DNA from: Sphaerolaimus hirsutus
Lineage: Eukaryota > Nematoda > Chromadorea > Monhysterida > Sphaerolaimidae
Assembly: GCA_964036195.1 (NCBI GenBank)
Contig: OZ038454.1
Location: 29,064,315-29,128,314 of the forward strand
Direction: 5' to 3'
DNA length: 64,000 bases
Below the pieces are notes generated by a model. That model ran no database searches and had not been told where the DNA came from. It saw nothing but the letters and a program-made list of their open reading frames with translations. Made by a program: the position numbers and the translations under genes. Numbering within the stretch: the stretch's first letter is position 1; every line of letters begins with the position of its first letter. Positions 6,901-39,900 of the stretch are shown in pieces.

Positions 6901-9900
6901 TCCAAATTTTTTTATCTTTCTGCTGGTACTGTTTGCAATATGATATACATTTGTTGTGTTAAATGAAAAATAAATTTTGGTTTGATACAAAATAATTTTT
7001 TCATCTATCATTAAGGCATCATTTAAACATGTTGATATATCAAAAAATTGCCCTATATTAATACTACATGAATCACCAAAACAATTTTCACACAATTACA
7101 CATGTCACAAATTAAAATTTTTTCAATGTGAAACAAGAAAATAAATTTTAAAATTATCATACTTTACTTTAACATGAATAATCAAGTGTCGCAATATCAA
7201 ATGGCTTTTGCTTAACAACATAGGAACATTTAAATCACACAAATAGCATCAAAGAAGGCTGGGTCAACTCATTTCTGAAAATGTATTTTTCGCAGTTGAC
7301 AATATCGTTTAACAATCAGACCTAACTACCCAAAAAATAACAAAAAACAGGTTAACACATACGCAGTTGCGTAAATGTCTACTAAGAAATAGGTTGTGTC
7401 AACTAAATGGAGTTGACTCTGAGTTGATGCTGGAATCTATGTCAACTAGCATGTGCAGCGCCTTAAGCACGGAAACGGCATGCAGATTATTTCTCACTTC
7501 TCACACATTTTTCACGATTTTTCGAGTTATTTTTCAACGTCACTTGCCCCTTAAAAAGTGTCACATTTTGTGGAAAGACCGCTTCTCCGATTTACCGTTG
7601 TTCTTCTAATAGAACGTCATCCCCCAATAGAACGTCATCCCCCAATAGAACGGCAGGTAAATATTACGTTGGAAGAGTGCCAAAAACAACTGCATTAAAA
7701 ACGTTGCCACCCAGGAGCACATGAACAGCAGAATCATGTACTGGCCGCGCGGCAGGGTGTGGGGCGGCTCGAGCGCGCTCAACGCCATGTGCTACGTGAG
7801 GGGGCACCCCCTGGACTACGACCGCTGGACCAATCGGGATGGGTGTGGTGGGTGGAGTTTCAAGTGAGTTTGGGGGTTTTGGAGGGGTTTCGTTGTTGTT
7901 TTTTTTTGAAGCTAGTCTGTTGATTTTTTTGGTGCTTGGATTATTTATTCGTGGGTTATCTAAATTATGTGGGGTAATATTCAAGAACATACAGTATCCA
8001 TACATCTGAAAATAAACAGTGTGGGGAATTTTCGACGTGGGCTTATCGATCACGTAAATAGTTTGTTTTGCTCTAGGTTGCACCATTTAGAAGTAATTTC
8101 ACCTTAGATTTCAGAGCGTCACTTTTATTACTGAACAAATTGGACTGTAAAACTCCACATACCGTATTTCCTCGAAATACCCCTCCCCCTCGAAATACCC
8201 CCTCAAAATCGGCACTATGAATTTGTGGTCCGGGAAATGCATAACAGATGTTCAAAACACTTACTGTGTTACGTTAGAACATCGTTTATACCATCTACAT
8301 CGTTATATAAGGCTGTAAAAACTTATAAATGGTGGTTATTGTTGCATTTATCACGTTTTTGACTCAAAATTCTCACCCCCCAGGGGGTATTTCGAGGAAA
8401 TACGGTACCTAGTTTACATGAGAGATATTTTAAAATGCTGTTTAAAAATTAAAAAATGTGTAGGTTTATAACTATGTGATTTTGGAATGACATTCGTCAT
8501 TTACAATCATAATTTTCAGAAATTGTCTACCATACTTCAAACGAGCGGAAGAATTCCGCCTCGCTCCAGATTCTGGCACTGAGCCAAATGGACCATTCAG
8601 AGGCTCCAGTGGGCCTTTGAAAGTTACCCAGGGCCACTGCGACAATGAATTGCATCACGCGTGGATGGCTAGCGGGTTGCAAGCTGGATTTGGATACACT
8701 AGTGATATGAATGGGTTCAGGTAGGTTTTGTTGTTTTTGGATGCGATAAATGTTTTGTGTAGAATCACGCACGGTGCTAATAATACTTGGAAAATTTTGG
8801 TTCCGTATTCGAACGTTTTTTGGTTTGGGATGTGCGGAAGTGGTATTCAAATAATCGTGGTTTTTGGAATAGAGAGACACTGATGAGGTGACTTGTTCCG
8901 TGATGTGTGTACCACGCGTGAAACGCGCCAAAACGTAAGTCAAAATAAGGTTGGTCGAAAGATCAGAAATATATAGATTTTTAGGTTTTCAAATTTCAAT
9001 TAATCACGATTTTTGAAAGTACCATTTGTCCCTCACGCGGGATCAAAAACACAAAAAAAATCATTTAACAACTTAGTGCTTGACATTTTCTAACATGTCC
9101 CAAACTTGTAACTGCACTGCATTTATTAACCTCAGACAAGAGGGGCTGGCCAGAATGGATATGACCATTGACAAAGGAGTTCGTTCGAGCGCCAGTAGGG
9201 CCTATCTGACCAAGGTTCGGATTTTTCTATTATGATTCTACAACTTTTCTATTGGCCCTACACACACTAGTTTTCACCGTGACTCGTGTGAAAACTGAAA
9301 TGGCGACATGCCGACATTCAGCCTACTTTTTTTGTATGCTATATGTGTTTTAGTTTTCAAATTTGCAATTTTTAACTTTCATTAATTTAATTTCTATTTT
9401 AATTTAAATAAAATAAAATCATTCAACCGTGTTCATTAATTTGCATTTGAAAAAATTTCAGTTTTCCCACGAAGTCACGGTGAAATCTAGTGTGTGTATA
9501 ATAAGATAACGGACCCCCGGGTACTACAACCTTATCTCTAATATAATGATATAACCCCTCCGGTCTTGCAACCTTGTCATTATGAGCCAAATAGCAACAC
9601 CTTGGACAGTGTCCAATTCCGTCAGAACTTTCAACGATGCGCTCATGCAGCCCATCCTGCCTAATTACGCCAAATGTACAGCACCTAACAGGGGACTTAG
9701 TTACCTTTTGCACCCGTGGAACGACAAACGATGGCAACACGCCAACCAAATAATCGCACAATTCCGATAATTCAACGAGCGGCATAATGTCCACCGGACG
9801 ATCAACAATTGCCCTACAAACCCTACGCTTGCCGCGTGCGCGGGAACCCTGCCTGCCAAACTTCACCAGCTTGGTGCCTTTCGACCTAGCTACTCCGAAG

Positions 9901-36900: not shown

Positions 36901-39900
36901 ACGGAAGTGCATTCAAAAGTGTACCAAAAATAAGTGACTTCAGTTGAACAGAGCCATGTTACCACAAGGGTTACTTTTTAATGGAACAGAGGAAATGGTG
37001 ACTTGACATTCAGGAACACCTTTCTTCTGGCACTCAGCCAGCTAATAAAACCAAACTTGGAACTGTGCCAAACTAAGAAATAACCACCTACAGTAACCTA
37101 CCGAATGTAACGCACAAACTAACAGCTTAAAAATGCCTAAACTGAGTGAAACTCTCCAAGTTAACATGATATAACTAAAAAAACAGCCGCGTGAATCCAC
37201 AGGCTACTCGAAAACTGCAAACAACTGCAAAAGGACCAAAAACACAAAAACAACCGTGTTTGCTCAAACGTGAGCTCGTCCAAACCATCGTACCAATCGG
37301 CCAACGCGAAGCTAAACATGACGTGCAAAAGTGCAAAACACAGAAATACGTGCGAAACACAGAAATAAGTGCGAACATAAAAATACAATCACAAACACAT
37401 GCAATTATCACAAACTAAGGGGGTTAGGTGGATAATTAAGTGCAAATAAACACAAACACATACGCAATAAATCACAACCCGCGGCACTTACCGCGAACCT
37501 ACTCCCTAAACCTACTCCTACACCCTACAAAAATCACAAAACTCCTCCCTGTGGCAGCAGTGGCTACGGGATATGTGCCAAACTACACACAAAACTGCCT
37601 TTTTGGCATTCTTCCAATTTCCTTTACTAATTTTAATCTAAGGCACATATCCCTCCAGAAGGGTTGACCCGTCTCTACTCCGAAGGGCGTAGGCTTCAGG
37701 AGCTATCGGGGCCCTCCCTTCCGGTGGCCACTCCCACCAAGAACTCTGAGCGGCCGAAGTCTGTCGCTCCGCGGACGTTTCCGGCGGCCAACGCTGTCGG
37801 CGCTCGCGGGGACTGGGTAGGGGTGAATTTACGAGTTTTGAGCGATAAACTGTCGCCAAAATACGGCGGCAGCGCTTAGCCCCCTTCGAAAATACACTCG
37901 GTGCCGTTTTCAGAAAGTTGGCACTCGGCCAAAGGTGGCCGATTCGACGCTCTACAAAAATGCCCAAAACCACCCAAAATCCCCCTCTCCCGGGCTCCGG
38001 CGGTCGGCGGTCGTTGAATGGCGGCGGCGCGGCGCTGTCGCGGCCGTCGAAGTCGTTTGCCGGCGCTCGTTCGGTCGCCCTCCTCGGGGAAACACAGTTT
38101 TTACTCGGCGCTGCTTTTCTTTTTAATGAAAAGCGCCGTAACTCTCGCGAAAGTTAGGTTCCGTTCCCGGGGATGTCGAGTGACGTCACCCGGCCGTGTT
38201 CACAACTAAATACATCCAATTAGGCCGTTTTGCCAATTAGGGCCGGCGGCATAGCGCCATCGATGTACCGTTCCATGGTAATTCGCGCTTAATCACCGTC
38301 CCAGAGGCGTAGGTCTGGCACTTTGGTGATCTGGCGCCAATTACCATAGCTGGCGTCCGCTGCGCCGTAAGTTCCATATAAGTTAGGTTCCGTATATGGC
38401 GGTGTCGTAATGACGTCACATGGCCCGAAAGGGGTCAATATGGCGTCCCCGGCGGCTAAAGCGCCATAATTAGGGCTTGTAAGCGTTAATTGACGCTGGG
38501 TCGCCGTCCCAGAGGCATAGGTCTGGCACTTTGGTGGCCCGCCATCAGTTCTCGCATTACATGTGTAGGCACATTGTGTGCCGGAATTTTGAGTACCGCT
38601 AAATCTGTTTTGAACACATTCGAATTTCCCCGATTGAGTAATTTGCGATCTCTGACGACTGCTAATTTCCGGACTTCGCATTCTGGTAAACTCAATGCGT
38701 TCAGAGATGAATCGGCTGTTTCAGAAATTTCGACTGTCAGCCGAGTGTCAACCGGTGGCAATCCCAAGCCCTGTAAAGTGTAAAGTAAAGTGTCACATGT
38801 AAAGTCAAATGCAAAGTAAACTGTCAATTGTCATGCAGAGTTCAGTAATAAAATCTTTTCTTTTTTGTTTTGATTGACACTTTACTTTGCATTTGACTTT
38901 ACATTTGACACTTTACTTGACACTTTACAGGGCTTGGGACTTGTTTCGATGTCATTTCAGATTTTTAGTTGACGTTTAGTTTAGATGTAAACACCTTCCC
39001 GATCAAGTCCGGCCCCCCATTTTTTATTTTACTTCTGACGTCCTATCTCCTGTTCTAGGACGCGTCAGAAGCTGAAACTTGGGGTAGATAATGGCTCAAC
39101 CCCCCTCTACTTCACATGAATTGAAGGGGTCGCGGCGACCCCCTACAGGGTGGGTCGCCAAGTGCAAAAAAAATTTGCAGCTTTTTTAGTGTCCCACACA
39201 GGTCCGGCCCCCACTGATTTCTTTCACTGCGGGTGCCGTACCTCCACCTGTGGGAGGGGTATAAATCTAAAATTTTGGGGATGTGTCGCCAACACCCCTC
39301 CCCAACGTATACACTGGCCAGGCGGTCTTTGGCAACTCACAACAGTGTGGGGTGCAAAGTTGAAAATTTATTAAAATGTTACCGTCCCACACAAGTACAG
39401 CATCCAATTGAATTTCAAAAAATGGACACGTTTGTGTTGTTTTAACACTAATGTGGTTGACAATGTGAAATAAGCATGAATAATCCTCTAAAAAATATCT
39501 TATCCGACCTAAAACTGCCCATCACATGAACCCCTCCTCCCAAGTGGGTGACAAAAAATCACTTTTTACAACTTTTTCATCAGACACTTGAACTGCTGGT
39601 TTACAATGATTTATAGAGGAGGGTTAAAGGTTTCAAATTGTGTAAAAAACCTTACCTCAAAAATGCCTTCACAAGAAAATTTGCTGGGGGTAAATTTAAA
39701 ATTGTGAATTTTGCCTATTTTTGTTCCTGCAATGATGTCATTTTTACAATTTGAAATTCACCCCCAGCAAATTTTCTTATGAAGGCATTTTTGAGGTAAG
39801 ATTTTTTACACAACTTGAGACCTTTAACCCTCCCCTATAAATTATTGTAAACCAGCCGTTCAAGTGTCTAATAAAAAAGTTGTAAAAAGTGATTTTTTTG

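Follow-up and report, generated by a model that had tools for sequence, protein, structure and literature searches.

What purpose could a short hairpin serve when it recurs in 18 different copies within one retroelement? This question is raised by a stretch of 64,000 nucleotides from the nematode Sphaerolaimus hirsutus (contig OZ038454.1, positions 29,064,315 to 29,128,314; hereafter the window), which carries a giant Ty3/gypsy-type long terminal repeat (LTR) retroelement on its minus strand, at about 9497-38562. The minus strand is the coding direction and is therefore referred to as the sense strand of the element, and its two large open reading frames as ORF1 and ORF2. The hairpin units lie in a single orientation, share a conserved head and have kept the pairing of their arms through changes on both sides of the stem, in part under coding constraint. 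The motif is real and unusual, and falls in no family of the libraries searched. The explanation to which we give an even chance is that of a structured RNA element acting in cis and present 18 times in the sense transcript of this Ty3/gypsy-type element.

Read on the sense strand, each unit comprises a variable arm, a 3-nt bulge, a 3-bp stem, a G.G mismatch or a C-G pair, a 5-bp stem, the loop CCUACGUC and the arm that pairs with the first one. The bulge is UAA in 11 of the 18 copies, and the 3-bp stem occurs as AGU/ACU, AGU/AUU, AAU/AUU or AGC/GUU. The position between the two stems is a one-by-one G.G in 12 copies, A.G in one and a C-G pair in four; in copies 12583, 12791 and 29840, the presence of CAA with a G opposite shifts one pair from the upper to the lower stem. 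The 5-bp stem is CCAAG/CUUGG and variants thereof. A first-pass annotation, made from the letters alone, had listed GAAG/CTTC among these variants; this type exists (GAAG/CUUC in RNA) but it is restricted to the LTR copies 9894 and 11963, which are divergent. The same annotation described the loop as conserved, and near-constant is the better term, as the exact loop GACGTAGG is found in 13 of the 18 distinct copies, or at 14 positions when one LTR duplicate is included, and five copies deviate: GGCGTAGG in 11963, 12583 and 29633, GGCATAGG in 12791 and GGCGTCGG in 34439.

A relaxed scan allowing up to 9 mismatches to the 27-base consensus, on both strands of all 64,000 bases, gave 23 matches. 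Twenty-two of them are hairpin copies, all matching on the plus strand and thus in one orientation, and the remaining one is an unrelated 9-mismatch match at 62398. Three local shuffles, scanned on the plus strand only, yielded no match at up to 9 mismatches and 10 matches at 10. A covariance model trained on the 18 distinct copies, whose recovery is thus by construction, found all 22 copies at E ≤ 9.4e-12, the next best of the 54 listed matches being at 50608 with an expectation value (E) of 0.006. Both procedures therefore returned the 18 distinct copies, 22 with LTR duplicates, that had been counted at first, and the earlier statement that none lies outside the element holds for the window. 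The copies are given below; coordinates span the core plus 20-nt arms, and bits are those of the covariance model.

9874..9940, minus strand: hairpin copy 9894, GAAG/CTTC type, 3' LTR, 40.1 bits
11943..12009, minus strand: hairpin copy 11963, GAAG/CTTC type, 3' LTR, 41.9 bits
12563..12629, minus strand: hairpin copy 12583, 3' LTR, 61.3 bits
12771..12837, minus strand: hairpin copy 12791, 3' LTR, 53.7 bits
13544..13610, minus strand: hairpin copy 13564, 3' non-coding region, 67.8 bits
14883..14949, minus strand: hairpin copy 14903, 3' non-coding region, 63 bits
15028..15094, minus strand: hairpin copy 15048, 3' non-coding region, 59.2 bits
15311..15377, minus strand: hairpin copy 15331, 3' non-coding region, 59.1 bits
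15508..15574, minus strand: hairpin copy 15528, 3' non-coding region, 63.5 bits
15615..15681, minus strand: hairpin copy 15635, 3' non-coding region, 59.6 bits
15793..15859, minus strand: hairpin copy 15813, 3' non-coding region, 57.4 bits
15901..15967, minus strand: hairpin copy 15921, 3' non-coding region, 60.3 bits
16039..16105, minus strand: hairpin copy 16059, outer arm starting just past the stop at 16129, 61.1 bits
23881..23947, minus strand: hairpin copy 23901, between ORF1 and ORF2, 59.1 bits
29613..29679, minus strand: hairpin copy 29633, inside ORF1, 46.5 bits
29820..29886, minus strand: hairpin copy 29840, inside ORF1, 58.4 bits
34419..34485, minus strand: hairpin copy 34439, inside ORF1, homologous to 34622, 58.2 bits
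34602..34668, minus strand: hairpin copy 34622, inside ORF1, 59.9 bits
35590..35656, minus strand: hairpin copy 35610, LTR duplicate of 9894, inside ORF1 in a frame different from that of the other four ORF1 copies
37659..37725, minus strand: hairpin copy 37679, LTR duplicate of 11963
38279..38345, minus strand: hairpin copy 38299, LTR duplicate of 12583
38487..38553, minus strand: hairpin copy 38507, LTR duplicate of 12791

By region, the distinct copies are distributed as four in the LTR, nine in the 3' non-coding region (13564-16059), one between the ORFs and four in ORF1, with none in ORF2. Read in the sense direction, the 3' array opens directly behind the stop at 16129, which closes the frame downstream of ORF2.

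The evidence for a selected structure, as had been proposed, comes from the arms. The 20-nt arms of the same copy fold at a mean of -17.5 kcal/mol (n=18), against -8.5 kcal/mol for swapped combinations (n=306), and the own arm is the best in its row for 14 of the 18 copies (12 of 18 on the plus strand). In the 18-row alignment 69.2% of the 468 cells are standard pairs, a proportion that falls to 43.2% or less when the partners are slid by 1-3 columns, and the covariation score is 0.438 compared with at most 0.162 after the same sliding. Because relatedness can mimic covariation, a phylogenetic null was built from 300 alignments simulated on the tree of the copies (67 columns; a rough tree). 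Standard pairs in the arms amount to 59.6%, against 36.6 +- 5.1% in this null, and both-sided changes to 0.212, against 0.037 +- 0.012 (maximum 0.078); none of the 300 simulated sets reaches either value. A G-test with average product correction over all 2016 column pairs placed its top four pairs all within the structure. The pairing has thus been kept beyond what relatedness predicts and, in the aggregate, the covariation stands far above the null.

Five copies lie in ORF1, including the one in the 5' LTR, and four of them share a frame, in which they encode SQAYAPG, CQAYVPG, CQTDASG and CQTYVSG. The native fold of about 100 nt around each ORF1 copy was compared with 1000 synonymous recodings; those equalling or beating it numbered one for 29633, one for 29840 and five for 34439. 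The structure is therefore favoured beyond protein coding in three of the five ORF1 copies.

With respect to the origin of the copies, the outer arms had been described as different in every copy yet still pairing. They do pair despite their differences, but not all of them are unrelated: while identity over all 153 copy pairs averages 12.2 of 40 arm bases, it reaches 30/40 for 34439/34622 and 25/40 for 12583/12791, and 15048/16059 seem homologous with a one-base shift, as judged by eye. Among the eight changed pairs of 34439/34622, one changed on both sides and one on a single side with pairing kept, three were gained, two broken and one is unpaired in both copies. The 11 changed pairs of 12583/12791 comprise two both-sided and two one-sided changes with pairing kept, two gains and five losses. 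These data fit copies that multiplied by duplication inside the element and then diverged, while selection probably acted on pairing across the set, even if such few direct comparisons are by themselves no proof.

An alternative origin, put forward in the first-pass annotation, is a mini-element landing in palindromes and multiplying within the retroelement. The sharp boundary between a conserved core of about 27 bases and arms with little in common speaks for it. However, the arms of several copy pairs are homologous and include some both-sided changes, all the copies have a single orientation, pairing is favoured beyond the needs of coding in three of the five ORF1 copies, and the window beyond the element has none of them. 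Since homologous arms with both-sided changes and pairing kept under coding constraint are better explained by duplication plus selection than by insertion, we consider the mini-element very improbable.

Which strand carries the active form is a further question, and the G.T pair of the 5-bp stem had been read as allowing an antisense RNA or a DNA structure. In this stem seven of the 18 copies do have a wobble that exists on the plus strand alone; in the 3-bp stem, eight have a G.U or U.G that exists on the sense strand alone. The two sets offset each other, and the wobble argument for the plus strand fails. In sense-strand RNA the head mismatch joins two purines, and on the plus strand it becomes C.C or C.T; together with the coding direction, this makes sense-strand RNA the likelier form, and we infer that it is the more plausible one. 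The opposite view is that the motif acts on the other strand, for instance as a DNA hairpin in single-stranded complementary DNA during reverse transcription or within an antisense transcript. Pairing on the plus strand is as good as on the sense strand, and copies 29633 and 29840 fold better there; against this, the plus-strand head has C.C in 12 of the 18 copies and its 3-bp stem a non-standard middle pair in eight. On balance we regard action through the other strand as unlikely.

Several observations weigh against a structured element acting as sense RNA. On the choice of strand, standard pairs are nearly equal (69.2% sense, 69.9% plus), and the single arm mismatches, which read on the sense strand are G.U in five cases, A.C in eight and others in 11, do not tip the balance. 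The fold z is slightly in favour of sense: with 35-nt flanks its mean is -3.27 for sense and -2.76 for plus, sense being lower in 10 of the 18 copies (with 20-nt flanks, -2.78 and -2.33, and 12 of 18), and sense energy is lower in 8, 11 and 14 of the 18 copies at flanks of 20, 35 and 45 nt. Some sense folds are weak, with z at flank 35 of -0.69 for 15331, -1.47 for 9894, -1.48 for 11963 and -1.55 for 15921. On the structure itself, no single column pair reached E ≤ 0.05 among the 2016 (best 0.20), in a test of all pairs that has little power with only 18 short sequences; the covariation that the first annotation had proposed to look for is thus seen in the aggregate and not pair by pair. Of the 22 copies, no more than 11 fall among the element's 45 strongest distinct fold windows; the strongest of all (31547) has no head, nor do those at 18522 and 24147; with several stronger or equal hairpins lacking the head, strong folding alone does not set the motif apart. 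In ORF1 the folds of 35610 and 34622 are unexceptional, being equalled or beaten by 46 and 82 of the 1000 recodings, respectively. Finally, homologous copies also break pairs, two of eight in 34439/34622 and five of 11 in 12583/12791, and the suspected homologous pair 15331/15813 showed no such conservation in this register.

The long imperfect hairpins might also be self-cleaving ribozymes or precursors of small RNAs, and a likeness to twister had been suggested, to which the UAAA word, familiar from that ribozyme, lends some colour. Rfam gave no family at gathering score over the whole window and none at E ≤ 10 over 9497-38562, so the twister likeness is not borne out and the initial failure to recognise an Rfam class proved correct. 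The arms have no constant seed in common, and cleavage at so many sites would presumably destroy the genomic RNA. Of the explanations considered, this one is the least probable. A fungal small nucleolar RNA model over copy 15921, obtained when 13400-16300 was searched at E ≤ 5, scored 18.2 bits (gathering score 40; E 2.9) and disappeared in the larger search; it was discarded.

True copies elsewhere were not seen in the window, in viral contigs or in prokaryote genome contigs, the contigs being poor places to look for a eukaryotic-looking element. The strict core pattern had no match in either contig set. A shorter core matched three viral contigs, where the model fits just the head (about 18-20 bases) and not the arms, and these were rejected; one of them (L001) has, in an apparent repeated coding motif, two near copies separated by about 30 bases. 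The 5' half of the core was absent from the viral contigs and matched seven genome contigs, with about 15 expected by chance according to our own arithmetic. Two of the seven score 13.6 and 12.5 bits (E 0.022 and 0.054), the other five gave nothing at E ≤ 0.1, and an Rfam scan of five of the seven loci returned no match. We took all seven for coding sequence and not for hairpin copies, presumably that of the histidine-kinase G box. In a text search of the literature the 12-base head was absent among the matches listed, a result from which absence from print is not claimed.

The element that carries the hairpins has the following main features:

9497..12846, minus strand: 3' LTR (identical part), 3350 bases identical to 35213-38562, holding copies 9894, 11963, 12583 and 12791
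35213..38562, minus strand: 5' LTR (identical part), holding the duplicate copies 35610, 37679, 38299 and 38507
24897..36170, minus strand: ORF1, 3757 amino acids stop to stop, with an N-terminal extension, CCHC knuckle, reverse transcriptase (RT), RNase H and integrase
16804..22962, minus strand: ORF2, 2052 amino acids stop to stop, its UAG end lying inside a NADAR domain

The two LTRs are 100% identical over their 3350 bases. A purine tract, GAAAAGGGGGGAGGAAG, is found at 12894-12910 (minus strand), followed by TGTGATG, 47 bases ahead of the onset of LTR identity at 12846; the true LTR start may be at about 12893, and the 5' LTR would then be without its first 47 bases. An open frame of 171 codons lies inside the LTR (11922-12437 and 37638-38153, minus strand) and overlaps hairpin copy 11963.

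The first ATG of ORF1, at 36140, is within the 5' LTR. Its domains, by residue, are zf-CCHC 1965-1981, RVT_1 2757-2918, RNase H 2981-3110 and rve 3414-3508, and this order of knuckle, RT, RNase H and integrase is that of Ty3/gypsy. Relatives of the RT/integrase part comprise 71 proteins, the top four from frog and pseudoscorpion; in the best one the similarity lies in pol, within the part of the alignment seen. A pol-alignment scan of the viral contigs confirmed none of 26 candidates. Residues 201-215 of ORF1 (35526-35570, minus strand), coded by the 5' LTR near hairpin 35610, have the highest net basic count of any 15-residue stretch in the two large ORFs. A long regular hairpin with an 8-nt loop and a different head spans about 24147-24250 on the minus strand, in the interval between these two ORFs and close to copy 23901.

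ORF2 as it stands has no Pfam or NCBIfam match, and no relatives at E ≤ 0.001 were found among 7989 scored candidates, nor any in the viral contigs. Its UAG stop at 16804-16806 (context TGC TAG CGT, minus strand) falls in the middle of the NADAR domain, the piece past the stop (16129-16803, minus strand) matching Pfam NADAR positions 72-158 of 163 at E 1.1e-10. This UAG may be a site of programmed read-through or a recent nonsense change, two cases that look alike here. From the identical LTRs and the long open frames the insertion would seem recent, despite the stop of ORF2 within the NADAR domain.

A candidate third ORF of 168 codons runs from 14334 to about 13767 (minus strand), with a 61-nt GT-AG candidate intron at 14140-14080; it has no Pfam family match, and hairpin copies 13564 and 14903 flank it. 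The predicted intron and third ORF hint that spliced and unspliced RNAs may both be made. A sense-strand AATAAA is present at 15274, downstream of copy 15331.

How might such a hairpin work? In the explanation that we favour, each unit would be a long hairpin whose shaft, free to change as long as it pairs, presents the conserved head. The hairpins would act as RNA of the sense strand, and a constant head on a variable shaft suggests a docking site for a protein or ligand, so that the head may be bound by the Gag of the element, another of its proteins or a host factor. Candidate partners within the element are the zinc-knuckle (CCHC) protein and the basic stretch at ORF1 201-215. Repetition in one RNA would give multivalent binding, which could decide the fate of the long RNA. 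As nine of the 18 distinct copies are in the 3' non-coding region, export or stability on one hand and packaging on the other appear as the likeliest outputs; the 3' concentration together with the hint of splicing favours a role in exporting or stabilising the long unspliced RNA, while the copies in the LTR and ORF1 favour packaging or condensation. We give these two outputs about equal weight.

As an export or stability element, the 3' array would recruit a protein of the element or an export factor of the host to bring long unspliced RNA out of the nucleus, in the manner of the Rev response element (RRE) or the constitutive transport element (CTE). In retroviruses, elements for export and stability lie in the 3' non-coding part, which here harbours half of the distinct copies, and the candidate intron and small third ORF also speak for this output. 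The head, with its G.G mismatch and bulge, and the basic stretch in ORF1 may resemble Rev/RRE recognition. On the other side, copies are also deep within ORF1, the intron is predicted only and no Rfam family matches. We regard this output as possible, though short of probable.

As a distributed packaging or condensation signal, the hairpins would load and compact the long RNA through Gag binding or through kissing of the loops at ACGU. The spread of the copies over LTR, coding and non-coding parts and the CCHC knuckle that the element encodes agree with this, as does the self-complementary ACGU, kept in 13 of the 18 loops. However, this palindrome is broken in the other five, ORF2 (about 6 kb) is without any copy, and the sense strand of the element has no 7-base complement of the loop, where about 1.7 would be expected, leaving no candidate for loop-receptor pairing. 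Moreover, the packaging signals of retroviruses and Ty1 are placed near the 5' end in the pertinent passages of PMC8396678, whereas the hairpins here cluster at the 3' end. Packaging, too, we regard as possible, though short of probable.

A bolder form of the favoured explanation is a multivalent RNA code along the whole element, in which the head, repeated 18 times and selected even in the gag-pol frame, would allow an element protein to condense, export or package the oversized RNA. We consider it possible, though well short of probable. If true, it would be the first distributed structural signal of its kind in an LTR retroelement, as we know of no earlier one. The size limits that transcription, reverse transcription and packaging set to giant transposons are discussed in parts of PMC6431247. 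How an RNA of 25-30 kb is expressed, exported and packaged is a question on which the hairpin gives a concrete handle. It is also an unusual statistical case, in which covariation is visible within a single insertion because the copies serve as their own alignment.

When compared with known systems, the motif shares with the RRE and other retroviral response elements the nature of a structured RNA that is carried by the transcript of the retroelement itself and interpreted as a place where a protein docks. As in the RRE system, a G.G mismatch sits close to a bulge, and the element codes for a basic stretch and for an ORF predicted to be spliced. The RRE is one compact multi-stem structure; here, in contrast, 18 separate hairpins with one head are spread over LTRs, ORF1 and the 3' region. 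The CTE resembles them as a cis element for export of unspliced RNA that also has a 3' non-coding position, but it is a small single element, whereas the 3' region alone has nine hairpins here. Both CTE and RRE are precedents for cis-acting export elements, as described in sections of PMC3856414.

Giant size, a gypsy-type affiliation, an unusual coding capacity and accessory ORFs are shared with the Burro elements of planarians, from which the present element differs by its large ORF2 ending in a NADAR domain; the available part of the Burro account makes no mention of hairpin families (PMC6431247). For packaging, Gag binding to Ty1 RNA offers a precedent, according to portions of PMC8396678. 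Hairpins that recur with a single loop and varying stems, as found here, would fit multivalent coat binding. Distributed packaging hairpins exist in small RNA viruses, and we know of no 18-copy packaging signal in one LTR element. The double-hairpin elements of fungal mitochondria have a repeated short hairpin core as well; unlike them, the copies studied here have homologous arms with some both-sided changes and keep one orientation. The likeliest reading of the hairpin is that of an RNA signal acting in cis, such as retroviruses are known to have, but in a multi-copy form that is unfamiliar.

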